From Marihabitans asiaticum (GTDB lineage: Bacteria; Actinomycetota; Actinomycetes; Actinomycetales; Dermatophilaceae): a DNA stretch of 64,000 nt. This document shows positions 7,343-63,910 of the stretch, piece after piece (position 1 is the stretch's first letter; each line of letters starts with the position of its first letter). The notes under the pieces are model-generated. The model was not told the origin of the DNA and did no database searches. It saw only the letters and a program-made list of their open reading frames with translations. Made by a program: the position numbers and the translations under genes. The stretch lies in NCBI RefSeq assembly GCF_007828725.1, contig NZ_VIUW01000002.1, positions 682,001 through 746,000 of the forward strand, read 5' to 3'.

Positions 7343-7438
7343 TGGCGGAGGCGGACGGGAATCGAACCCGCCAGACCGAGATGCTCGGCCTCACCGGTGT
7401 TGAAGACCGGGGGGACCACCAGGTGCCCAGACGCCTCC
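7343..7438 (-). tRNA. selC: tRNA-Sec (anticodon UCA)
   Basis: A 96-base tRNA. The acceptor stem GGAGGCG pairs with CGCCTCC, followed by discriminator G and an encoded CCA (7343-7345). The anticodon arm is CCGGT-CTTCAAC-ACCGG with UCA at positions 34-36. A long variable arm (GAGGCCGAGCATCTCGGTCT region) and the T-arm GGCGGGTTCGATTCCCGTC follow. The length, long variable arm and UCA anticodon together identify the selenocysteine tRNA that reads UGA in a SECIS context. Confidence 0.97.
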
Positions 7439-18006: not shown

Positions 18007-21000
18007 GTGCCTCTCCACCTGCACCGGGCGGTCCGGACCGACCAGCTCGCCGAAGCCCTCGGCGAGCTGCTCTCGGTGCCCGCGGACGACCCCTTCGCGC
18101 AGGACGTCGTCGTCGTCCCCGAGCACGGCATCGAGCGGTGGCTGGCCCAGCGGCTCTCGCACCGGCTGGGTGCGGGTGAGAGCGGCGAAGGGGGTGTGTG
18201 CGCCGGGGTGCGGTTCGTCCGGCCGTGGTCGTTGGTCTCCTTGCTCACCGGCCAGGGCGAGGACGACCCGTGGCTGCCCGGCCACCTCGTCTGGCCGTTG
18301 CTGCAGGTGATCGACGACTCCCTCGACCAGCCCTGGGCGGCCCCGCTCGCCCGCCACCTCGGCCACGGCGACGGGGAGGACGCAGACGAGGTGCGCCAGG
18401 GCCGCCGGTACGGGCTCGCCCTTCGCCTGGCCCGTCTGACCCACCGCTACGCCGTGCAGCGTCCCGCCGTCCTCACCGCCTGGCGAGAAGGCCGCGCCGA
18501 GGACGGCACCGGCCAGGCGCTGCCGCCCGACCTGACCTGGCAGCCCGAGCTCTACCGCCGCCTCCTCGACGTCATGGATGTCGACCCGCCGGACGTGCGC
18601 CACGACGCAACGCTCACCCTCCTGCGGGAGACGCCCGACGCGGTCGACCTGCCCGGGCGGGTCTCCCTCTTCGGTCACACCCGCATCGCGGTCACCGAGA
18701 TGGAGCTGCTCGCCGCGCTCGCCGACCACCGCGAGGTCCACCTCTGGCTGCCGCAGCCCTCGCCGGCCGCGTGGGAGGAGCTGCTCGACACCGCGAGCGT
18801 CGAGGTCGGGGTCGTGCCCCGCGACGAGGACCGCTCGGCCGACCTCGCCCACCACCCCCTCCTCGCCTCGCTGGGCCGGGACAGTCGCGAGCTCGCCAGG
18901 GTGCTCACCCAGGCCACCACCACGGCCGAGGACGACCTCGTGCAAGGCTCACCCCCCTTCGCCGATCAGTCCCCGGCCATCCTCCTCGGCTGGCTGCAGG
19001 CCGACCTCGCGACCAACCACGCCCCCACCGACGAGGACCGCGCGGCCCGGGTTCGCGACGCTGGCGAGCGCAGCCTCACCGTCCACGCCTGCCACGGACC
19101 GAGCCGCCAGGTCGAGGTGCTCCGCGAGGAGATCACCGGGCTGCTCCAGGACGACCCGACCCTGCAGCCGCGCGACGTGCTGGTGATGTGCCCCGATGTC
19201 GAGACCTACGCGCCGCTCATCGCCGCCGCCTTCGGCCTCGGCGAGCACGGCACCGACGCCGAAGGGGTGGACAGCCACCCCGCGCACCGCCTCCGGGTCA
19301 GCCTCGCCGACCGCTCGCTGCGCGCCACCAACCCGCTGCTCACGACCGCCGAGCAGCTCGTCGCCCTCCTCGGCGGACGGATGAGCGCGAGCGAGGTCCT
19401 CGACCTCATCTCCTCCGCGCCGGTACGCCGACGGTTCCGCCTCGACGACTCCGACCTCGAGACGATCACCGGCTGGGTGCGGGCGACCGGTGTGCGGTGG
19501 GGGCTGGACCAGGCCAGCCGCGCCCCCTTCGGCCTGGCCGTCGAGGGGCAGAACACGTGGGACTTCGGTCTCGACCGGGTCCTCGCCGGGGTCGCCGTCT
19601 CCGCCGACGGGCCGGTGAGCGTCGGCGACTGCGTCCTGCCGCACGACGACGTCGGCAGCGGCAGCATCGACCTCGCCGGGCGGCTCGCCGAGCTCGTCTC
19701 ACGCCTCGACGGCGCGCTCGCCGCCCTCTCGGGCGCCCGCTCCGCCACCGACTGGACCCAGGCGCTGCGCGAGGGGGTGCTGGCGCTCACCGACGTCGCG
19801 CTCGACGACGGCTGGCAGCTCGGCCACCTCGACCGGGTCCTCGCCGACGCCGCGCGCCACGCCCCCGAGGACCTGCCGCTGCGGCTCGCTGACGTGCGGG
19901 TGCTGCTCGACGACCGGCTCGCCGGGCGGGCGGGGCGGGCCAGCTTCCGCACCGGCGCGCTCACGGTGTGCACGATGACCCCGATGCGCTCCGTCCCGCA
20001 CCGGGTGATCTGCCTCGTCGGGCTCGACGACGACAGCTTCCCTCGTCAGCAGAGCGTCGACGGCGACGACGTGCTCGCCCGCCGCCCGATGACCGGCGAG
20101 CGCGACGCGCGCAGCGAGGACCGCCAGCTCCTCCTCGACGCGATCATGGCCGCGCAGGAGCGGCTCGTCATCACCTACACCGGAGCCGACGAGCGCACCG
20201 GCGAGCGCCGGCCCCCCGCCGTGCCGCTCGGCGAGCTCATCGACGCTGCCGCGGACACCACCGCCGGCGAGGTGCCCGTCCTGCGGCATCCGCTGCAGCC
20301 CTTCGACCCGCGCAACTTCGCTCCCGGCGCCGTCGAGACCACCCGCGCGCAACCGGTGAGCTTCGACCGGGCCGCGCTCACCGGCGCCGAGGCGATCCGC
20401 GGCGAGCGACTGCCCCACCCCCCGCTCCTGGACGGCCCGCTCCCGGCCGAGGTGGTCGCCGAGGTCTCGCTGACCGAGCTGCTCGACTTCGTCCTCTCCC
20501 CCGCCCGGACCTTCCTGCGCGACCGATTGGGGGTGGCGCTCACCTGGGACGAGGACGAGGTGAGCGACCGCATGCCGATCTCCCTCGACGGCCTCGAGGC
20601 GTGGCAGGTCGGCGACCGGGCGCTCACCGCGCTCCTCGCCGGGCGGCCGGCGCACGAGGTGTGGCGGGCCGAGCTGCTCCGCGGTGAGCTGCCCCCCGGC
20701 GGACTGGCGCAGGTCGCCCTCGGCCCCGTCGCCGAGCAGGTCACCGCCCTCGTCGCCGCGCACCGCCAGGCCGCCGGGAGCGAGGAGGCCCGCAGCGTCG
20801 CGGTCGACGTGCCGCTGCCGCAGGGGCGGCGGCTGACCGGCACCGTCGACGGGGTGCGTGGGGATGGCCTGCTCGACGTGACCTACAGCCGGGTCGGGGC
20901 CAAGCCGTTGCTGCGCGCCTGGGTGCGTCTGCTCGCCCTGTCGGCGTCGACCGATGAGAGCGAAGGGGTGAGCGCTCGCGTCATCGGCGGTGGCGGCCGG

Positions 21001-21375
21001 CGCGGACCGCAGCAGCGCCTGCTGGGGCCGGTTGACCCCGTGCTGGCCCGCTCGCGCCTCGCCGACCTCGTCGACCTCTACCTGCTCGGGCGCACCGCAC
21101 CGCTGCCGCTACCGCCGAAGACCTCCTACGCCTGGGCGCAGGCCGTCCATCGGGACCCGAAGAAGACCCGCGCCGCCGCTCGAGCCGCGCTCAGGGACTG
21201 GCAGAGCGAGCGCTATCCCGGCGAGCAGGACGACCGCTGGTTCGCCGCGGTCTACGGGGCCGGTGCCGATCTCTCCGTGCTGCGCGCCGACGCCGCCGGC
21301 CCGGGCACCGACATCGCCACCCTCGCGCCGCGGTTCTGGGACCCGATCCTGGACAACCTCGGGGGTGGGCGATGA
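18007..21375 (+). CDS. recC: Exodeoxyribonuclease V gamma subunit RecC
   Basis: A 1122-residue RecC, the inactivated helicase-nuclease subunit that splits the strands and scans for Chi in the RecBCD complex. Recognisable blocks are VVPEHGIERWLAQRLSHRLG near the N-terminus, SLFGHTRI, TVHACHGPSRQVEVLREEI with VLVMCPDVETYAPLI, and CTMTPMRSVPHRVICLVGLDDDSFPR. The C-terminal domain ends with FAAVYGAGADLSVL. GTG 18007 is preferred over TTG 17998 because homologues begin near PLHLHRA. The stop overlaps recB (ATGA). It contains at least four copies of the dispersed 9-mer. Confidence 0.95.
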   Translation: MPLHLHRAVRTDQLAEALGELLSVPADDPFAQDVVVVPEHGIERWLAQRLSHRLGAGESGEGGVCAGVRFVRPWSLVSLLTGQGEDDPWLPGHLVWPLLQVIDDSLDQPWAAPLARHLGHGDGEDADEVRQGRRYGLALRLARLTHRYAVQRPAVLTAWREGRAEDGTGQALPPDLTWQPELYRRLLDVMDVDPPDVRHDATLTLLRETPDAVDLPGRVSLFGHTRIAVTEMELLAALADHREVHLWLPQPSPAAWEELLDTASVEVGVVPRDEDRSADLAHHPLLASLGRDSRELARVLTQATTTAEDDLVQGSPPFADQSPAILLGWLQADLATNHAPTDEDRAARVRDAGERSLTVHACHGPSRQVEVLREEITGLLQDDPTLQPRDVLVMCPDVETYAPLIAAAFGLGEHGTDAEGVDSHPAHRLRVSLADRSLRATNPLLTTAEQLVALLGGRMSASEVLDLISSAPVRRRFRLDDSDLETITGWVRATGVRWGLDQASRAPFGLAVEGQNTWDFGLDRVLAGVAVSADGPVSVGDCVLPHDDVGSGSIDLAGRLAELVSRLDGALAALSGARSATDWTQALREGVLALTDVALDDGWQLGHLDRVLADAARHAPEDLPLRLADVRVLLDDRLAGRAGRASFRTGALTVCTMTPMRSVPHRVICLVGLDDDSFPRQQSVDGDDVLARRPMTGERDARSEDRQLLLDAIMAAQERLVITYTGADERTGERRPPAVPLGELIDAAADTTAGEVPVLRHPLQPFDPRNFAPGAVETTRAQPVSFDRAALTGAEAIRGERLPHPPLLDGPLPAEVVAEVSLTELLDFVLSPARTFLRDRLGVALTWDEDEVSDRMPISLDGLEAWQVGDRALTALLAGRPAHEVWRAELLRGELPPGGLAQVALGPVAEQVTALVAAHRQAAGSEEARSVAVDVPLPQGRRLTGTVDGVRGDGLLDVTYSRVGAKPLLRAWVRLLALSASTDESEGVSARVIGGGGRRGPQQRLLGPVDPVLARSRLADLVDLYLLGRTAPLPLPPKTSYAWAQAVHRDPKKTRAAARAALRDWQSERYPGEQDDRWFAAVYGAGADLSVLRADAAGPGTDIATLAPRFWDPILDNLGGGR

Positions 21376-24300
21376 GCACTCTCACCCCCTTCGACCCGCT
21401 CGGGGAGCTGCCCGAGCTCGGCGAGACGGTGCTGCTCGAGGCGAGCGCCGGCACCGGCAAGACGTGGACCATCGGCACCCTCGTCGCCCGGTACGTCGCC
21501 GCCGGCATGCCGCTGGAGCGGATGCTCGTCATCACCTTCGGCCGGGCCGCCAGCCAGGAGATGCGCGAGCGGGTCCGTGAGCGACTGCGGGAGGTGCACG
21601 CCGGGCTGGTCGACGCCGATCCCGATGCTGGGGCCGAGGGCGCGAGTGACCCGGTGGTCGAGCAGCTTCGCGCGGGCGACCGGGAGCGGGCCGAGCGCCG
21701 ACTACGCGAGGCACTCACCCACTTCGACGCGGCGACCATCGCGACCACCCACCAGTTCTGCCAGCTCGTGCTGCGTGGTCTGGGCGTCGCCGGCGACACC
21801 GACCCGCGGGCACGACTGGTCGAGGACCTCACCGACCTGCGCGAGGAGGTCACCGACGACCTCTACGTGCGCGGCTTCGCCGGCGCCTCTACCGAGCCGG
21901 CCTTCACCCGCGCCGAGGCCGGGGCGATCGCCCGCGCCGTCACCGAGAACCCCCACGCCGAGCTCGCCCCGGACCGGCTCGACGGCGACGGGGTCGACGC
22001 CCGCAAGCTGCGTTTCGCCCACCTCGTGCGCGCGGAGCTGGACCGGCGCAAGCGCCGGCTCGGGGTGCTTGGCTTCGACGACCTGCTCAGCGAGCTCGCC
22101 ACCGCCCTGGAGGACCCGGACAGCCCCGCCCGGTCGCGCATGCGCGACCGATGGCAGGTCGTGCTCGTCGACGAGTTCCAGGACACCGACCCCGTCCAGT
22201 GGGACGTGCTGCGGCGCGCCTTCGCGGGGCACTCAGCCCTCGTCCTCGTCGGCGACCCCAAGCAGGCGATCTACGGTTTCCGCGGCGGTGACGTCGACAC
22301 CTACCTCGAGGCCGCCGCGACCGCCGAGCGCCGTCACACCCTCGCCGAGAACCACCGATCCGACGGCGACCTGGTCCGCGCCCTGACGACGATGATGCGC
22401 GGTGCCGAGCTCGGCTCGCCCGGCATCGTCGTGCGCGAGGTCGACTCCGCGTCGCGGCTGCCCGCGTCCAGGCTCTCCGACCCATCCGCCGAGCCGCGGC
22501 AGCCGGGCGAAGGGGGCGCGCCGAGCGTCGGCGGTGAGCCGGGCCACGAGGGTGCTCCCGGCGACCCGCCGGACGAGGCCTCGACCCGCTTGCATCCGGT
22601 GCGACTCCGGGCGGTGCCGCACCGACTCGTCGCCGACGAGGAGGGAGCGGTGAGCATCAAGCGGGTGCGCCCCCTCGTCGCAGCGGACTGCGCCGCCGAG
22701 GTCACCCGGATGCTCGCCGCGGGGACCACCTTCGACGGACGAGCGCTGCGCCCGGGCGACATCGCGGTGCTCGCCCACACCCGGATGCAGCTCGAGGCGG
22801 TGCGCACCGCACTCACCGCTGCCGGGGTGCCCTCGATCATCGTCTCCTCGGAGTCGATCTACACCAGCACCGCGGCGCAGGACTGGCTGACGCTGCTCGA
22901 GGCAATGGCCCAGTCGCACCGAGCCGAGCGGGTGCGCGCGGCTGCCCTCGGCCCCTTCTTCGGGCACCGAGCGGCCGAGCTCGCCGACGGCGGTGACGAG
23001 CTGGTCGAGTCGACCTCGCGGATGCTGCGCTCCTGGGCCGAGGTGCTGCAGCGACGCGGCATCGCCGCCGTCCTCGCGGCGGCAGCCGCTCACGGTCTCG
23101 ACGCCCGGGTGCTGCGCCACGACGGCGGCGAGCGCCAGCTCACCGACCTGCGTCACGTCGCCGAGCTGCTCCACCAGCGGGTCCTCGTCGAGGGCGACGG
23201 ACTGGCCGCGCTGACCACCTGGCTCACCGAGCGCAGGCAGGCCGCGCGGCAGGAGGAGCGCACCCGCCGCCTCGACAGCGACGCCGACGCGGTCAACCTC
23301 GCCACCATCCACGGCAGCAAGGGCCTGCAGTACCCCGTCGTTCTCCTCCCCTTCGTCGCCGACCGCTGGCGCGGCACGACCCCCGACGTGCTGCACTACC
23401 ACCGCGCCGACGGGCGACGCTGCCTCGACATCGGCATCCGCTCCGACGCCGACCGCGACGAGCGGGAGGCCCGGCATGCCGCCGAGGAGGACGGTGAGTC
23501 CCTGCGCCTCTTCTACGTCGCGATGACCCGGGCGCAGAGTCAGGTCGTGGCGTGGTGGTTCCCCGCCGGGGCGAGCACGCCGGCGTCGCCGCTGCATCGA
23601 GTGCTCTTCGGCCGTGACCCTGGCGGGGGCGAGATACCGCCTCGGGTGCTCGTCCCACCGGAGTCCGGCGCCGCCGGGCGGTTGCGAGCCTGGGAGGTCG
23701 AGGGCGCCTTCGCCCTCGAGGTCGTCAACCCCCGCGAGAGCCTGCCCGTGCCCGACCTGGCGTCGACCGCGCCACTGACCACGCGCGAGTGGACCCGGCA
23801 GGTCGACCACGGCTGGGTGCGCACCTCCTACACCGGGCTGACCCGGCCCCTGGACGCCGCGCCCGCGAGCGAGCTCGTGACGAGCGAGCCGGATCTCGAG
23901 GACCACGAGCACGAGGAGGACGCCGAGCTCGGTGCGGGCTCCGACCGTTCGTCTGAGGTTCCCCGGGGATCTGCGACGGCGGCGGGCGAAGACGAGCCGG
24001 GGGCTGACCGTTCGTCTGAGGATCCCCGGGGATCTGCGGTGTCAGGGGTCGGGCACGTGCCGTCGCCGATGGCTGACCTGCCGGTTGGGGCGACCTTCGG
24101 CAACCTCGTCCACGCCGTGCTGGAGGAGGCAGACCCAGGCGCGGCGGACCTCCATGCCGAGCTGATGGGACACATCGAGGACCAGCTCGGCCGGTGGACG
24201 GTCGCCGACCTCGACCGGACTGCCCTGGCCGATGCACTGGTCGCGGTCTGCGACACCCCTCTCGGCCCGCTCGCGCCAGGGGCGACGCTGCGCGGCATCG

Positions 24301-24881
24301 GGCGGGCAGACCGGCTGTGCGAGATGGCCTTCGAACTGCCGCTGGCCGGCGGCGACGCCGCCACCGAAGGCGACGGAGCCACCCTCGGTGACCTCGCGTC
24401 GATCTTGCGCGAGCACCTGCCCGTCGGCGACCCGGTGCGCGGCCTTGCCGACGCCCTCGACGACCCGGCCATGGGCGAGCAGCACCTGCGTGGCTACCTC
24501 ACCGGGTCGGTCGATGTCGTCCTGCGCACCGGCGGGCGCTACCTCGTCGTCGACTACAAGACCAACTGGCTCGGACCCGCCGACGAGCCACTCACCACCG
24601 AGCACTACACGCCGGCGGCCCTGCACGAGGCGATGGGTCACTCCTCCTACCCGCTCCAGGCGCTGCTCTACGCCGTCGTGCTGCACCGCTTCCTGCGCTG
24701 GCGACTGCCCGCGTACGACCCCGAGCAGCACCTCGGCGGGGTGCTCTACCTCTACCTGCGCGGCATGGCCGGCCCCGACACCCCCGTCCTCGGCGGCCAC
24801 CCGACCGGTGTCTTCTCTTGGCAGCCCCCGGTCGACCTCGTCGCCGCGGTCTCGGACCTGCTCGACGGGGGGACGCCGTGA
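21372..24881 (+). CDS. recB: Exodeoxyribonuclease V beta subunit RecB
   Basis: A 1169-residue 3'-5' helicase with a C-terminal nuclease. Walker A is LEASAGTGKTWTI, motif II VLVDEFQDTDPVQWD, motif III LVGDPKQAIYGFRGGDVDTY, motif V ATIHGSKGLQYPVVLLP, and motif VI LFYVAMTRAQ. The nuclease motif is YLVVDYKTNW at about residue 1058. The linker at about residues 858-889 contains two in-frame copies of a 33-base repeat, read as DRSSEVPRGSA and DRSSEDPRGSA. It is coupled to recC and recD by 4-base overlaps. Confidence 0.96.
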   Translation: MSTLTPFDPLGELPELGETVLLEASAGTGKTWTIGTLVARYVAAGMPLERMLVITFGRAASQEMRERVRERLREVHAGLVDADPDAGAEGASDPVVEQLRAGDRERAERRLREALTHFDAATIATTHQFCQLVLRGLGVAGDTDPRARLVEDLTDLREEVTDDLYVRGFAGASTEPAFTRAEAGAIARAVTENPHAELAPDRLDGDGVDARKLRFAHLVRAELDRRKRRLGVLGFDDLLSELATALEDPDSPARSRMRDRWQVVLVDEFQDTDPVQWDVLRRAFAGHSALVLVGDPKQAIYGFRGGDVDTYLEAAATAERRHTLAENHRSDGDLVRALTTMMRGAELGSPGIVVREVDSASRLPASRLSDPSAEPRQPGEGGAPSVGGEPGHEGAPGDPPDEASTRLHPVRLRAVPHRLVADEEGAVSIKRVRPLVAADCAAEVTRMLAAGTTFDGRALRPGDIAVLAHTRMQLEAVRTALTAAGVPSIIVSSESIYTSTAAQDWLTLLEAMAQSHRAERVRAAALGPFFGHRAAELADGGDELVESTSRMLRSWAEVLQRRGIAAVLAAAAAHGLDARVLRHDGGERQLTDLRHVAELLHQRVLVEGDGLAALTTWLTERRQAARQEERTRRLDSDADAVNLATIHGSKGLQYPVVLLPFVADRWRGTTPDVLHYHRADGRRCLDIGIRSDADRDEREARHAAEEDGESLRLFYVAMTRAQSQVVAWWFPAGASTPASPLHRVLFGRDPGGGEIPPRVLVPPESGAAGRLRAWEVEGAFALEVVNPRESLPVPDLASTAPLTTREWTRQVDHGWVRTSYTGLTRPLDAAPASELVTSEPDLEDHEHEEDAELGAGSDRSSEVPRGSATAAGEDEPGADRSSEDPRGSAVSGVGHVPSPMADLPVGATFGNLVHAVLEEADPGAADLHAELMGHIEDQLGRWTVADLDRTALADALVAVCDTPLGPLAPGATLRGIGRADRLCEMAFELPLAGGDAATEGDGATLGDLASILREHLPVGDPVRGLADALDDPAMGEQHLRGYLTGSVDVVLRTGGRYLVVDYKTNWLGPADEPLTTEHYTPAALHEAMGHSSYPLQALLYAVVLHRFLRWRLPAYDPEQHLGGVLYLYLRGMAGPDTPVLGGHPTGVFSWQPPVDLVAAVSDLLDGGTP
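23943..24038 (+). repeat. Two in-frame copies of repeat family A inside recB
   Basis: Copies of the 33-base unit GACCGTTCGTCTGAGG plus TTCCCCGGGGATCTGCG lie at 23943-23975 and 24006-24038; the second has one change (GAT for GTT). They are 63 bases apart, a multiple of three, so recB stays open. They code for a low-complexity linker between the helicase and nuclease domains. Other copies are at 43714-43802, 45397-45594 and 63878-63910. Confidence 0.9.
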
Positions 24882-26740
24882 GCCTCACCCCCTTCGAGCC
24901 GACCGGACCGCGCGATTGCCGCCTCGCGCTGCACGCCGAAGGGGTGCTGCGCTCGTTCAACGAGGCCGGGTGGATCGAGGCGGCCGACGTGCACGTCGCG
25001 GCTCGCGTCGCGGGCTTGGTCGCCGAGACCGACGACCGAGCTGTTGTCGCCCTTGCCCTCACCGTCCGCGCGGCCCGCGAGGGCTCCGCCTGCCTCGACC
25101 CGTCGACCGTCCTGCCCGTGCTGGCTGCGAGCTCGAGCGAGGACAACGCGCCCGACCACCAGTTCGCCGACCTGTTGCCCACCGATGTCGACGACTGGCT
25201 CGCGACGATCCGCTCCAGCGCGCTCGCCGCCGCCGAGGTGCTCCAGGTCGAGCATGACCTGATCTACCTCGATCGCTACCACCGCGAGGAGGTGCAGGTC
25301 GCCGACACCCTCCGCGCCCGCGGCGAGCTGCCCGACCTGCCGGTCGACGATGCGGTCCTCGAGGCGGGCCTGGCCCGGGTCTTCGCCGGCGACAGCTGGC
25401 ACGAGCAGCGCGAAGCAGTCCGCGCGGCGGCGGGCCGGCGCACCACGGTGCTCGTCGGCGGGCCGGGCACCGGCAAGACATCCACCGTCGCCGGGCTGCT
25501 CACCCTGCTCGTCGAGCAAGCCGAGGCGACCGGTCGACGCCGACCCACGATCGCCCTCGCCGCACCCACCGGCAAGGCCGCCGCCCGGCTGCAGGAGTCG
25601 GTCGCCGAGTCGGTCGCCGGCTTCGCCGACCCCGCCGACCGGGAGCGGGTTGGCCCGCTCGACGCAGTGACCGTGCACCGCCTGCTCGGGTGGCGACCCG
25701 GATCGAGCACCCGCTTCCGGCGCGACCGTGCCAACCCCCTGCCCCACGACGTCATCGTCGTCGACGAGGCCTCGATGCTCTCGCTCACCCTCACCGCCCG
25801 CCTCCTCGACGCGGTCCGACCCGGGGCGCGGCTGGTCCTCGTCGGCGATCCCGACCAGCTCGCCTCCGTCGAGGCCGGGGCCGTGCTCGCCGACCTCGTC
25901 GCCGGGTACCAGGACCCGGCACCTCACCAGCCACCGCCCGCCGCCCCGCCGAACCACAGCCCGGTGGTGCGGCTACGCACCTCGCACCGCTTCGGGCAGC
26001 GCATCGGTGCACTCGCCGCCGCCGTCCGCGACGGGCAGGAGGAGCGGGTGGTCGAGCTGCTCCGCAGCGCCGGCACCGACGACGGCGATGAGGGTCTCGA
26101 CGGCGGGCAGGACGTCGCCTTCGTCGAGGTCGACAGCCCCGGCGCGGCCGAGAAGGCCTTGCGCGGCCACCTGCTCGGTCACGCGAGCCGGCTGCGTGAG
26201 CTCGCGTTGCGCGAGGACGCCGAGGGGGCGCTGCGTGAGCTCTCCGCCCACCGACTGCTCTGCGCCCACCGGGACGGCCCGTGGGGAGTCTCGTCCTGGA
26301 ACGACCGGGTCCACCGATGGCTCGCCGAGACCACCGGCTATCACGGGCGTCAGTACGCCGGGCGTCCTCTGCTCGTCACCGCCAACGACCACCGGCTCGG
26401 CCTCTACAACGGCGACACCGGAGTCGTCGTCCTCGGCGACGAAGGTCGTCTCGTCGCCGTCTTCGGCGACCCCACGGACCCGGCCCGCTACGGCATCGGG
26501 TCGATCGGCGACGCCGAGACCGCGCATGCGATGACCATCCACAAGAGCCAGGGCAGCCAGGCTCGGCACGTCACCGTCCTCCTGCCCGACGCGGACTCCC
26601 GCCTGCTCACCCGCGAGCTGCTCTACACCGCGATCACCCGCGCCCAGCACCACGTCACCGTCGTTGGCTCCGAGGAGTCGGTCCGCGCCGCCGTGACCCA
26701 CCGCACCGCCCGTGCCTCCGGTCTACGCCACCGCCTCTGA
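24878..26740 (+). CDS. recD: Exodeoxyribonuclease V alpha subunit RecD
   Basis: A 620-residue 5'-3' superfamily 1 helicase. It shows GGPGTGKTSTVAGLL (motif I), LAAPTGKAAARLQES (Ia), TVHRLLGWRPGSSTRFRRDRANPLPHDVIVVDEASML (Ic and II), LVGDPDQLASVEAGAVLADL (III), AHAMTIHKSQGSQA (V) and LLYTAITRAQHHVTVVG (VI). The N-terminal ~150 residues form the RecB-binding domain. GTG 24878 overlaps the recB stop. The protein completes a standard recCBD operon. Confidence 0.95.
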   Translation: MSLTPFEPTGPRDCRLALHAEGVLRSFNEAGWIEAADVHVAARVAGLVAETDDRAVVALALTVRAAREGSACLDPSTVLPVLAASSSEDNAPDHQFADLLPTDVDDWLATIRSSALAAAEVLQVEHDLIYLDRYHREEVQVADTLRARGELPDLPVDDAVLEAGLARVFAGDSWHEQREAVRAAAGRRTTVLVGGPGTGKTSTVAGLLTLLVEQAEATGRRRPTIALAAPTGKAAARLQESVAESVAGFADPADRERVGPLDAVTVHRLLGWRPGSSTRFRRDRANPLPHDVIVVDEASMLSLTLTARLLDAVRPGARLVLVGDPDQLASVEAGAVLADLVAGYQDPAPHQPPPAAPPNHSPVVRLRTSHRFGQRIGALAAAVRDGQEERVVELLRSAGTDDGDEGLDGGQDVAFVEVDSPGAAEKALRGHLLGHASRLRELALREDAEGALRELSAHRLLCAHRDGPWGVSSWNDRVHRWLAETTGYHGRQYAGRPLLVTANDHRLGLYNGDTGVVVLGDEGRLVAVFGDPTDPARYGIGSIGDAETAHAMTIHKSQGSQARHVTVLLPDADSRLLTRELLYTAITRAQHHVTVVGSEESVRAAVTHRTARASGLRHRL

Positions 26741-26741
26741 C

Positions 26742-26832
26742 CCCCTTCGCACCTGCCAAGGCAGGGACCACCCCACCGGCCCTCCCTTCGCACCTGCCAA
26801 GGCAGGTACCCGATCTGGGGTACCTGCCTTGG
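26742..26832. terminator. Repeat family B hairpin between recD and the metalloprotease gene
   Basis: Two direct copies of a unit that reads CCCCTTCGC (or CCCTTCGC) followed by ACCTGCCAAGGCAGG lie at 26742-26765 and 26784-26806. The second copy pairs with a downstream complement: arms 26797-26811 and 26818-26832 (15 bases, loop GATCTG). The hairpin lies between the converging stops at 26740 and 26857, so it probably terminates both transcripts. Confidence 0.75.
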
Positions 26833-43713: not shown

Positions 43714-43802
43714 CGCAGATCCCCGGGGAACCTCAGACGAACGGTCAACCCCAACTCGACCCACCCCTTCGCAGATCCCCGGGGAACCTCAGACGAACGG
43801 TC
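43714..43802 (-). repeat. Two copies of repeat family A
   Basis: Units of 33 bases at 43714-43746 and 43770-43802, 56 bases apart, read on the minus strand. The second is joined to a copy of the 9-mer (43764-43772) that overlaps its end. They lie between the deacetylase promoter and the AlaX stop; the palindromic centre TCCCCGGGGA can fold. The remaining sequence from 43559 to 43713 holds no gene. Confidence 0.9.
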
Positions 43803-43829: not shown

Positions 43830-44510
43830 TCAGGCGTGCTCCGCGGTGTAGCTGAGCTTGAGCTGGCCCTTCTTGGTGCGCACCCGGGTGATGGCCAGCC
43901 CGGCCAGGTCGGCGGTGCTGCGCACGTGCGTCCCGCCGCAGGGGTCGGTCTGGACTCCCTCGATGGTTACCCGCCGAACCCCTTCGCCATCCACCTCGGC
44001 CGAGTAGGGGAGGTCAGCCGCCACAAGGCGGCGGGCCCGGTCGAGGACCTCCTCGACGAGCGCGGCCTTGCTCTCCTCGTCGGTCGGCAGGGTCCCGCCG
44101 TCGACGTCGTAGAGCAGGAAGGCCTGACCAGGAGTATGGCTTAGCCCGATGTTGGTGAAGCCGAGCGGCAGCACGCAGGCGTCGAGCAGGTGACCGGCCG
44201 AGTGCAGCGCTGCGTGCTGACGCCGCACCTGCAGGTCGATCGCGACGTGCACCGACCCACCGACCTCGGCGCGGGCCTCGTCGTCCTCCGGTGCAAGCCA
44301 GACGATGCCCGCCTCGTCCTTGCTGACCGTGGCCAGCCGACCGTCGACGCGCACGACGTCGTCGGGCTGACCTCCCCCCTTCGGGTGGACGATCCCGTCC
44401 CGCACCGCCAGCGCGGGCCCGGGATCCTCCCTGGCGGCGACCACCTCGGTGTCGACCTCGGTGAGGTAGGTGTCCTCCCAGTAGCGACGGCGCTGCTCCA
44501 TGATCGCCAT
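43830..44510 (-). CDS. alaX: AlaX-type alanyl-tRNA editing protein
   Basis: A 226-residue free-standing editing protein that hydrolyses Ser-tRNA(Ala) or Gly-tRNA(Ala). The zinc-binding HxxxH lies in QHAALHSAGHLLDACVLP and the second motif is TDPCGGTHVRSTADL (CxxxH). The GGGQPDD loop is also conserved. ATG 44510 (MAIMEQRRRYWEDTY) was chosen; the longer frame overlaps the SDR gene. It follows the SDR gene with four bases between. Confidence 0.9.
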   Translation of the reverse strand: MAIMEQRRRYWEDTYLTEVDTEVVAAREDPGPALAVRDGIVHPKGGGQPDDVVRVDGRLATVSKDEAGIVWLAPEDDEARAEVGGSVHVAIDLQVRRQHAALHSAGHLLDACVLPLGFTNIGLSHTPGQAFLLYDVDGGTLPTDEESKAALVEEVLDRARRLVAADLPYSAEVDGEGVRRVTIEGVQTDPCGGTHVRSTADLAGLAITRVRTKKGQLKLSYTAEHA

Positions 44511-44514
44511 GAGA

Positions 44515-45321
44515 TCACCGATCGAGCAACGAGGCCATCTTCTTCGCGACGAGGTCGGTGGCCCGGCGCGGCGTGAGGCGGGACATGACATCCAGCGCCC
44601 TAGCGTCCTTGCCGATGACGACCCGGTAGGTGCCGTCCTCGACCGCTGCGATGATCTGCGCGGCGGCGTCGGCGGCCGTGGTCATCGACGTCGGAGGCGC
44701 TTCAGCCTCCGGGCCCGCAGGGCGACCGGGCAGGTCGACGCCGGAGTTGGTCGTGATGTCGGTGGCGACGCCGCCGGGGAAGACCACGGTGACCGCGACG
44801 TTCGTACCGCGCATCTCGGCGTACAGCCCCTCGGTGAGCAGCTTGACCGCGGCCTTGCTCGCGCCGTAGACGGTCTGCCCCGGCACCGGCGTGAAGCCGC
44901 CCATGCTCGAGACGTTCACGACGCTCGCCTCGGGCCGCGCGCTCAGCAGCGGCAAGAAGGTGGTGCACGTGTTGACCACGCCCCAGAAGTTCACCGCCAT
45001 GACCTGCTCCATAGTCGAGCGCTCAAGCTCGGCCAGCGGGACGAACGGCTGGATGATGCCGGCGACGTTGAGCAGCCCGTCGACGTGCCCGTGTGACGCC
45101 TCGACCGCCCCAGCCAGAGCGCGCACGGCCTCGATGTCGGTGATGTCGCAGCGGTGCGTGCTCAGGCGGTCGCCGACCGCCGTCAGGCGGGCCGTCTCCG
45201 CCAGGCCGTTGATGTCGACCGCGGCGACCCGTCCCCCCTTCGCGAGGAGTGCCGCGACCACCTCGCGGCCGATGCCGTTGCCACCCCCGGTGACCACGAA
45301 GACCTTGCCCTCGATCCGCAT
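44515..45321 (-). CDS. Short-chain dehydrogenase/reductase
   Basis: A 268-residue classical SDR. The cofactor loop is VVTGGGNGIGREV, the structural motif LLNVAGIIQ (NNAG-like), Ser in VVNVSSMGGF and the catalytic Tyr/Lys in VYGASKAAVKLL. An Asp in VAAVDINGLA suggests NAD rather than NADP. ATG 45321 has a strong GGAGAGGGC ribosome site. It is 5' of alaX and the family A repeat array lies in its upstream region. Confidence 0.9.
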   Translation of the reverse strand: MRIEGKVFVVTGGGNGIGREVVAALLAKGGRVAAVDINGLAETARLTAVGDRLSTHRCDITDIEAVRALAGAVEASHGHVDGLLNVAGIIQPFVPLAELERSTMEQVMAVNFWGVVNTCTTFLPLLSARPEASVVNVSSMGGFTPVPGQTVYGASKAAVKLLTEGLYAEMRGTNVAVTVVFPGGVATDITTNSGVDLPGRPAGPEAEAPPTSMTTAADAAAQIIAAVEDGTYRVVIGKDARALDVMSRLTPRRATDLVAKKMASLLDR

Positions 45322-45396: not shown

Positions 45397-45594
45397 GACC
45401 GTTCGTCTGAGGTTCCCCGGGGATCTGCGAAGGGGTCGGCCGAGTCCGGGAGACCGTTCGTCTGAGGTTCCCCGGGGATCTGCGAAGGGGTGGGCCGAGT
45501 CGAGGCGACCGTTCGTCTGAGGTTCCCCGGGGATCTGCGAAGGGGTGGGCCGAGTCCGGGCGACCGTTCGTCTGAGGTTCCCCGGGGATCTGCG
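45397..45594 (+). repeat. Four-unit 55-base tandem array of repeat family A
   Basis: The 33-base unit starts at 45397, 45452, 45507 and 45562, exactly 55 bases apart. The 22-base spacers are near-identical to each other (GGGGTSGGCCGAGTC core) and each begins with the rest of a 9-mer copy (45427, 45482, 45537). The array fills the divergent space between the SDR gene and the thiamine-binding gene, ending 18 bases before the latter's start. No cas genes are near. Confidence 0.92.
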
Positions 45595-50984: not shown

Positions 50985-51160
50985 GCCGTCGCCGGGGAGC
51001 CGAGTCCTGCCGCCTCGACGACGCCCCTGTATCACTGCGGCAGGAGCGGGGAACCCACGTTCGTGACCAGCTCGCCTGGTCTTGGGGTGAAGCCGGCCGC
51101 TCTTGAGCGGCGGGCGGGGTGCTCCACCCCAACCCGACAGCTCACCTCGCAGGCGCTGGA
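50985..51160 (+). ncRNA. ydaO-yuaA (cyclic di-AMP) riboswitch
   Basis: The leader of the cell-wall hydrolase gene carries hallmarks of the ydaO/yuaA element: GCCGGGGAGCCGAGTCCTGC near 50990, GGGGAACCCAC near 51050, GGGGTGAAGCCGGCC at 51084-51098 and the terminal CCCGACAGCTCACCTCGCAG at 51133-51152. This element binds cyclic di-AMP and usually turns off cell-wall hydrolase or potassium transport genes. The boundaries are approximate. The rest of the gap (50765-50984) holds no gene. Confidence 0.88.
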
Positions 51161-51167
51161 GACATCG

Positions 51168-52184
51168 ATGACCTTCTATGCCGGGCGCCACCGTGCCCAC
51201 CAGCAGTCCACGTCCGCCCGCCGCACCGCCACCCTCGGTGCGACCGCGGCCGTCGGCCTGGCCTTCCCCCTCATCTCCTCGACCGCCCACGCCGCCCCGG
51301 CGACGGCGGCCGTCGCCGCCCCGGCCACCGCGACCGCGCTCGCCCCCGCCGCTCCGGCGGTCTTCTCCGGCATCGTCCGGATCGGTCACCGCGGCAGCGT
51401 CGTCAAGAACATCCAGCGCAAGGTCGGCGCGAGCGTCGACGGCGTCTTCGGGCCCAACACCCGCTCGAAGGTCATGGCCTTCCAGCGCCGCAACGGGCTC
51501 GCCGTCGACGGCGTCGTCGGTCCCAAGACCGCCTCGCGCATGGGCCTCTCCGGTCGCGGCTCCTCCAGCAGCGGCTCGACCAGCAGCCGCTCGTCCAGCT
51601 TCAGCGGGACGGTGCGGATCGGTCACCGTGGCGCCGTCGTGCGGAACATCCAGCGCAAGGTCGGCGCGAGCGTCGACGGCGTCTTCGGGCCGGGCACTCG
51701 CTCGAAGGTCATGGCCTTCCAGCGCCGCAACGGGCTCGCCGTCGACGGCGTCGTCGGCCCCAGCACCGCCTCGCGCATGGGCCTGTCGGGCAGCAGCTCG
51801 TCCAGCAGCAGCACGTCGGCCCCGCGGGCGTCGCGCTCGGCCAGCCGTACCTCTACCTCCGCTCTGGTGAGCACCGCGAAGAGCCTCCAGGGGATCCCGT
51901 ACGTCTGGGGTGGCACCTCGCGCGCCGGCTTCGACTGCTCGGGCTTCACCTCCTACGTCTACCGTCAGCACGGCACCTCCCTGCCGCGCACCGCGGAGGC
52001 GCAGCGTCGCGCGGCGACCAAGGTGTCCAACCCGGCCCCGGGCGACCTGGTGTTCTTCGGCTACCCGGCCTACCACGTCGGCATCTACGCCGGCGGTGGC
52101 CAGATCGTCGACGCCAGCAGCTCCAAGCGCCAGATCACCCACCGCTCGATCTGGACGTCGAACGTGAGCTACGGCCGCTTCTGA
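51168..52184 (+). CDS. Secreted NlpC/P60 endopeptidase with two peptidoglycan-binding domains
   Basis: A 338-residue exported hydrolase. The signal segment is LGATAAVGLAFPLISSTAHA. Two almost identical peptidoglycan-binding (PG_binding_1) units follow (VRIGHRG..VVxNIQRKVGASVDGVFGP, about residues 70-130 and 149-209), each ending in a Ser/Arg-rich linker. The C-terminal NlpC/P60 domain has the catalytic Cys in GFDCSGFTSYVY and His in YHVGIYAGG. It cleaves stem peptides in the wall. The upstream riboswitch suggests control by cyclic di-AMP. Confidence 0.95.
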   Translation: MTFYAGRHRAHQQSTSARRTATLGATAAVGLAFPLISSTAHAAPATAAVAAPATATALAPAAPAVFSGIVRIGHRGSVVKNIQRKVGASVDGVFGPNTRSKVMAFQRRNGLAVDGVVGPKTASRMGLSGRGSSSSGSTSSRSSSFSGTVRIGHRGAVVRNIQRKVGASVDGVFGPGTRSKVMAFQRRNGLAVDGVVGPSTASRMGLSGSSSSSSSTSAPRASRSASRTSTSALVSTAKSLQGIPYVWGGTSRAGFDCSGFTSYVYRQHGTSLPRTAEAQRRAATKVSNPAPGDLVFFGYPAYHVGIYAGGGQIVDASSSKRQITHRSIWTSNVSYGRF

Positions 52185-52260
52185 GCGAGCCCCCCTCGCC
52201 TGACGCGAGCACCCGAAGGCCCCGGACCACCACGGTCCGGGGCCTTCGCCGTCCTCCTCC

Positions 52261-52317
52261 CCCCTTCGCACCTGCCAAGGCAGGTACCGGTCCTGGGCAC
52301 CTGCCTTGGCAGGTGCG
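52261..52317. terminator. Repeat family B hairpin
   Basis: Arms of 19 bases (52267-52285 and 52299-52317) built on CGCACCTGCCAAGGCAGGT, with a 13-base loop. A 9-mer copy (52261-52269) overlaps the left arm start. It lies between the converging stops of the NlpC gene and the VWA gene. Confidence 0.8.
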
Positions 52318-52334
52318 AGACGGGGGTGGGGTGC

Positions 52335-63877: not shown

Positions 63878-63910
63878 CGCAGCTCCCCGGGGAGCCTCAG
63901 ACCAACGGTC
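63878..63910 (-). repeat. Diverged copy of repeat family A
   Basis: A 33-base unit with three differences from the common form. Two of the changes sit opposite each other in the palindromic centre (GCTCCCCGGGGAGC) and keep the pairing. It is preceded by CCCCTTTCGC, a near-copy of the 9-mer. It lies in the gap between the decayed acetyltransferase and the partial gene at the right edge. Confidence 0.85.

Follow-up and report, generated by a model that had tools for sequence, protein, structure and literature searches.

A short repeat arrayed head-to-tail in an actinobacterial genome lies in frame within RecB and other protein genes

The window (the whole 64,000-nucleotide stretch of DNA analysed, from Marihabitans asiaticum) contains adjoining recC, recB and recD genes, all on the forward strand. 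recC (18007-21375) encodes a protein with Exonuc_V_gamma and RecC_C domains (Pfam), and recD (24878-26740) encodes one with AAA_19, RecD_N and UvrD_C_2 domains (Pfam). Also identified in the window were a selenocysteine tRNA (7347-7438, minus strand), a c-di-AMP riboswitch (51012-51170, plus strand) and, just past the riboswitch, a direct repeat of 217 nt (51362-51815; two copies 237 apart, 88% identical). The recB gene (21372-24881) is an open reading frame (ORF) of 1169 amino acids without internal stop, encoding UvrD-helicase, UvrD_C and PDDEXK_1 domains (Pfam). The initial annotation reported two copies of a repeat, in frame and 63 bases apart, inside this gene, read as a DRSSEVPRGSA-type peptide between helicase and nuclease, and both the copies and their placement were confirmed. 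Copy 1 (23943-23975, plus strand) is translated as DRSSEVPRGSA and has no mismatch to the 33-nt consensus of the repeat; copy 2 (24006-24038, plus strand) is translated as DRSSEDPRGSA and has one. They are separated by a 30-nt spacer (23976-24005, plus strand), with a start-to-start distance of 63 bases, and share the strand of the gene and a single frame. Both peptides fall within residues 858-889, between UvrD_C (which ends at residue 726) and PDDEXK_1 (907-1108). When aligned to E. coli RecB (1w36_B), they fall between blocks 439-722 and 949-1166.

The consensus of the repeat is GACCGTTCGTCTGAGGTTCCCCGGGGATCTGCG, which many copies, in addition to copy 1 of recB, match exactly. When as many as 3 mismatches are allowed, the pattern CGTTSGTCTGAGGNTCCCCGGGGANCTGCG matches the 2.95 Mb genome 140 times (71 and 69 in the two orientations), and the reversed pattern has no match at the same threshold. 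Thus, the repeat is not a product of chance. We read 130 copies at up to 7 mismatches in 33, from 51 stretches and the window (about 11 of the 140 were left out); all but one are within 3 mismatches of the pattern. The unit is 31-39 bp long, with 31 nt strongly conserved. Consensus positions 8-11 are CGTC in about 80% of copies and GGTC in about 20%.

Lacking are matches to CGTTSGTCTGAGGNTCCCCGGGGANCTGCG (up to 3 mismatches) in the genomes of two congeners (G001 and G002). A sequence model of 119 distinct units has 87 matches in the home genome (63 candidate places were scored), and just three single weak matches (E 0.0019-0.0088) in 98 other family genomes, of 99. Exact repeat patterns found no match in viral contigs or in a genome-contig collection from which the home genome is possibly excluded, and a four-copy array found none among plasmids and phages; with no viral, plasmid or phage match, a phage or plasmid origin was rejected. 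Dispersed families of this kind were not identified in 71 kb and 85 kb of congener DNA (from overlapping loci, with fewer distinct bases). Local tandem repeats occur in two loci of G002 (L011 and L165), along with C runs. Within the scope of these searches, the repeat family is confined to one species.

The copies form 60 arrays: 16 single, 26 double, 12 triple, 4 quadruple and 2 quintuple. Neighbouring pairs are head-to-tail in 69 of 70 cases, and units are spaced 44-46 bases apart in 38 of the 70 pairs and 54-57 bases apart in 20, two groups that differ by approximately one helical turn. Within an array, a spacer is as long as the next one in 20 of 25 comparisons, and consecutive spacers share a mean identity of 0.91, whereas spacers of different arrays differ. 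A CRISPR array was rejected given the near-identity of spacers inside arrays. Spacer ends resemble the upstream flank of their own array (similarity 0.488 vs 0.407, reached by 0 of 1000 permutations), and spacer starts are weakly similar to the downstream flank (0.609 vs 0.587, 43 of 1000 permutations). The flanks of the 60 arrays, inspected by eye, show no constant duplication. We infer from the spacer sequences that a unit plus its flank would have been duplicated in tandem after one insertion.

Outside recB, the window carries an intergenic array of two copies (43714-43802, minus strand), one of four copies (45397-45594, plus strand) and a single copy of the GGTC/GCTCCCCGGGGAGC variant (63878-63910, minus strand). 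This single copy lies in a segment of about 7.5 kb (window 63878 to the end, continued in L132, L133 and L134) that is present three times in the genome at an identity of at least 99.9%: contig C1 carries two copies in inverted order close to its start, and C2 carries one close to its end. The arrays at L081, L082 and window 63878 all lie in this segment, and are therefore not independent. An Rfam search of the segment gave no match. In the flanks of the 60 arrays, the word GCGAAGGG occurs upstream of 9 and downstream of 33, and 5 arrays have it on either side. Another palindromic family, ACCTGCC-TTGGCAGGT (26740-26819, 52259-52326, and about 1871-1930 of L088), has several copies followed directly by GCGAAGGG, and the two palindromic families thus adjoin the same word.

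The description of the repeat as palindromic holds for the core TCCCCGGGGA, but not for the whole unit. Single units fold no better than shuffles (z 0.01, 1.52 and -0.06 as DNA; 0.2 to 2.06 as RNA), and a single-unit hairpin was rejected. Head-to-tail arrays or dimers, in which the cores are able to pair mutually, have folding z values of -1.25 to -2.02. A Y1 transposase (PF01797) was not identified in the home genome, whereas 5 of 14 control genomes were positive; a RAYT-driven REP was rejected on this absence. The genes between neighbouring arrays at window 43830-45321 and L086 2031-3031 include no transposase (Pfam).

Based on gene calls from our own codon score, ten of the 60 arrays lie in ORFs, 20 between converging genes, 23 between codirectional genes and 6 between diverging genes (one is undetermined). 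Arrays inside genes are far fewer than expected at random for a coding fraction of 0.89 (p 7e-38). Of the 49 intergenic arrays, the 20 between converging genes are more than expected from a background of the gaps of one 64 kb window (p 8e-7 when bases are compared, 0.015 when gaps are counted). This excess, the strong conservation of 31 nt and the two clusters of unit spacing favour a repeat that functions as a protein-bound site or transcription-end element selected between genes, the coding copies being tolerated strays. We consider such a function unlikely, however: the repeat is absent from both congeners, near-identity of copies is also expected from recent spread, single units fold like shuffles and dimers reach only the values above, and the location background is a single window.

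The initial annotation considered the family otherwise intergenic. This did not hold, as a search for other in-frame copies placed 9 of the other 59 arrays (one of them doubtful) in called ORFs. Including recB, six arrays are internal, three terminal and one doubtful, and four frames are used. Internal arrays occur in recB, hypF (L087) and the genes for a membrane protein without a Pfam match (L098), an amine-oxidase/DUF1365/CMAS protein (L099), a cytochrome c assembly protein (L105) and an MFS transporter (L114). The terminal arrays are at the N-terminus of a KduI/IolB protein (L083; perhaps untranslated, if the start lies further on) and in the C-tails of a protein without a Pfam match (L124) and a Sua5/YrdC protein (L128). 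The doubtful array, with a 47-base step, is in an ORF that apparently spans two genes (L111 931-3432), where a membrane-protein ORF continues into a solute-binding lipoprotein; insertion of the repeat may have fused the two.

Forward copies encode DRSSEVPRGSA, and reverse copies encode ADPRGTSDERS, SQIPGEPQTNG or RSSPGNLRPTD. GC3 is 0.50-0.81 inside the coding repeats, compared with mostly at least 0.85 alongside. The reading of one DNA sequence as four peptides, together with the low GC3, argues for spread as DNA. Unit steps divisible by 3 were found in 9 of 10 in-gene arrays vs 19 of 34 intergenic arrays, a difference that is not significant (p 0.067), and unit spacing was rejected as proof of frame selection.

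For eight of the ten repeat-bearing genes, a homologue was identified in one or both congeners; neither congener has one at E 1e-8 for hypF or for the upstream part of L111. In all eight comparable genes, the repeat peptide is absent from the congeners. The gap is clear in four: 49 residues in L099 (G002), approximately 32 residues in L098 (both congeners), 40-46 residues in L114 (both congeners), and L124, for which the congener protein stops short of the repeat C-tail. A clean gap was not seen for L105 or L128, where the congener stretch is shorter and unrelated, and for L083 congener homology starts only past the repeat.

The recB genes of both congeners lack the repeat and have a shorter, unrelated stretch at the linker. 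We compared linkers from 29 of the 79 family genomes that match RecB at E 1e-100 (locus L080 gave none). The 28 linkers, including our own, are 71-132 amino acids long (106 here, 80 in G001 and 89 in G002), and those of the 27 relatives differ widely in length and sequence. None of the 27 contains the repeat peptide, so a relative with this peptide in RecB but no repeat in its genome was not seen among them. Alignment to relatives, expected to reveal a clean gap at an insertion, showed the shorter linkers of the congeners, but the sequences are too diverged to define an exact empty site. The proposal that the element inserted into a tolerant linker is nevertheless supported by the missing peptide and variable linker length in relatives, by the presence of the repeat DNA in other genes and frames, and by the gap or shorter unrelated loop in the congeners. 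The RecB linker is probably a site that tolerates the repeat, and the 32 residues added in this hypervariable region between helicase and nuclease probably have little effect.

The position of the insert between helicase and nuclease could also mean that the repeat is kept because it tunes RecB, with a longer charged linker altering nuclease positioning or the Chi response. One study describes REPs in the recB genes of two Xanthomonas species, in roughly matching positions in the two (PMC3733652), which would be in keeping with tuning if that position is this linker. We consider this very improbable, given that the linkers of relatives vary so widely and that the same peptide is present in HypF, the MFS transporter and another membrane protein, none of which is tied to recombination. 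The initial annotation also raised the possibility that the intergenic copies derive from the coding repeat in recB. Copy 1 is exact to the consensus, but so are many other copies, and the repeat is missing from the congener recB genes. Further, the AAGGGG tail, whose positions are 76-92% conserved across the family, is missing from both recB copies, and copy 2 has a private A at position 17 (1 of 130 copies). A source in recB was rejected on the missing tail and the private base, and we give it almost no credence.

The 9-mer GCGAAGGGG forms the end of 71 of the 130 repeat units. No other 9-mer occurs as often in the window as this one (72 copies, against a Markov expectation of 1.1-2.3), and seven of its one-letter neighbours occur there 0-5 times each. 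The genome contains 1,941 copies, balanced between strands (970 and 971). In this balance the word differs from Chi and KOPS. Counts are also high in G001 (628 and 676), in G002 (890 and 850) and in two species of a second genus (528 and 538; 354 and 383), compared with 39-44 for reversed-word controls in these five genomes of two genera. The other 56 of the 59 family genomes drawn have 22-124 copies, near the control, with a few up to about twice the control. Inverted pairs within 45 bases were found in the DNA examined, seven in +- order and two in -+ order; pairs in the window include 15433/15446 and 49299/49323. GCGAAGGGG looks like a candidate DNA uptake word. The DUS of Neisseria are described as having thousands of copies and terminator-linked inverted pairs (PMC3630211). 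Our literature search found no DNA uptake word for Actinobacteria, and the candidate system, if real, would be without known precedent in this group. The repeat, which carries GCGAAGGGG at its 3' end, might then spread by transformation and recombination at the word (about 2,000 sites), with slippage producing the arrays and no transposase involved, but we consider this route improbable.

We consider it likely that the repeat is a recently spread DNA element akin to intragenic REPs and RPEs, retained within genes only where it lies in loops or tails and preserves the frame, and expanded locally into head-to-tail arrays. A single unit would enter a site, and the unit plus flank would then duplicate in tandem to form a head-to-tail array. 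Selection would purge insertions that disrupt a frame or a folded core. Survivors would remain between genes, above all at converging gene ends, and also in protein loops, linkers and tails; in RecB, the repeat would have settled in the hypervariable helicase-nuclease linker. Insertion, tandem duplication and purifying selection are, we infer, the combination needing the fewest extra parts.

In this high-GC actinobacterium, a selfish-looking repeat adds peptide to RecB, HypF, a cytochrome c assembly protein and an MFS transporter. New peptides arise in several reading frames, with the congeners serving as the before-state, so that how well protein loops tolerate coding repeats can be tested directly. 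For RecB alone, the message is mostly an ordinary one: the linker accepts insertions.

MIRU-type mycobacterial interspersed repeats also form head-to-tail intergenic arrays in an actinobacterial host, but have longer units. The repeat described here differs from them in its short core, its site-specific spacers and its clear copies inside proteins. Titles searched in the open-access literature point to no such repeat family in Actinobacteria. Di Nocera et al. (2013) describe REPs (GTAG and CGTC superfamilies) near converging and codirectional gene ends, some of them in frame within genes, with many of the intragenic ones in repair genes (PMC3733652). The repeat is like these in its short unit (31-39 bp, within the 20-40 bp of REPs), its many copies (140), its location near converging and codirectional gene ends and its in-frame intragenic copies, including those in recB. 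However, its pairs are almost all head-to-tail, whereas REP dimers are mainly head-to-head or tail-to-tail (mostly head-to-head in PMC3733652). It also has no GTAG tag, no single-unit hairpin beyond shuffles, no Y1 transposase and an actinobacterial host. Compared by eye with the published stem and CCA tail of CGTC REPs, its CGTC does not mark the base of an evident stem. Thus, we do not file the repeat as a REP, since head-to-head dimers, Y1 transposase and hairpin all fail. The RPEs of Rickettsia, as described in two sources, comprise ten families of about 150 bp with in-frame insertions in genes (PMC10969869, PMC3733652). By description, the repeat is like an RPE in that one DNA sequence occurs, in frame, within unrelated genes and lengthens their products at seemingly tolerant sites, and unlike it in being a single 31-39 bp unit in tandem arrays. 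In-frame REPs and RPEs are already described in these publications, so coding repeats of this sort are not new, even in recB. The new features are the host group, the head-to-tail arrangement, and the lack of a hairpin and of a Y1 transposase.
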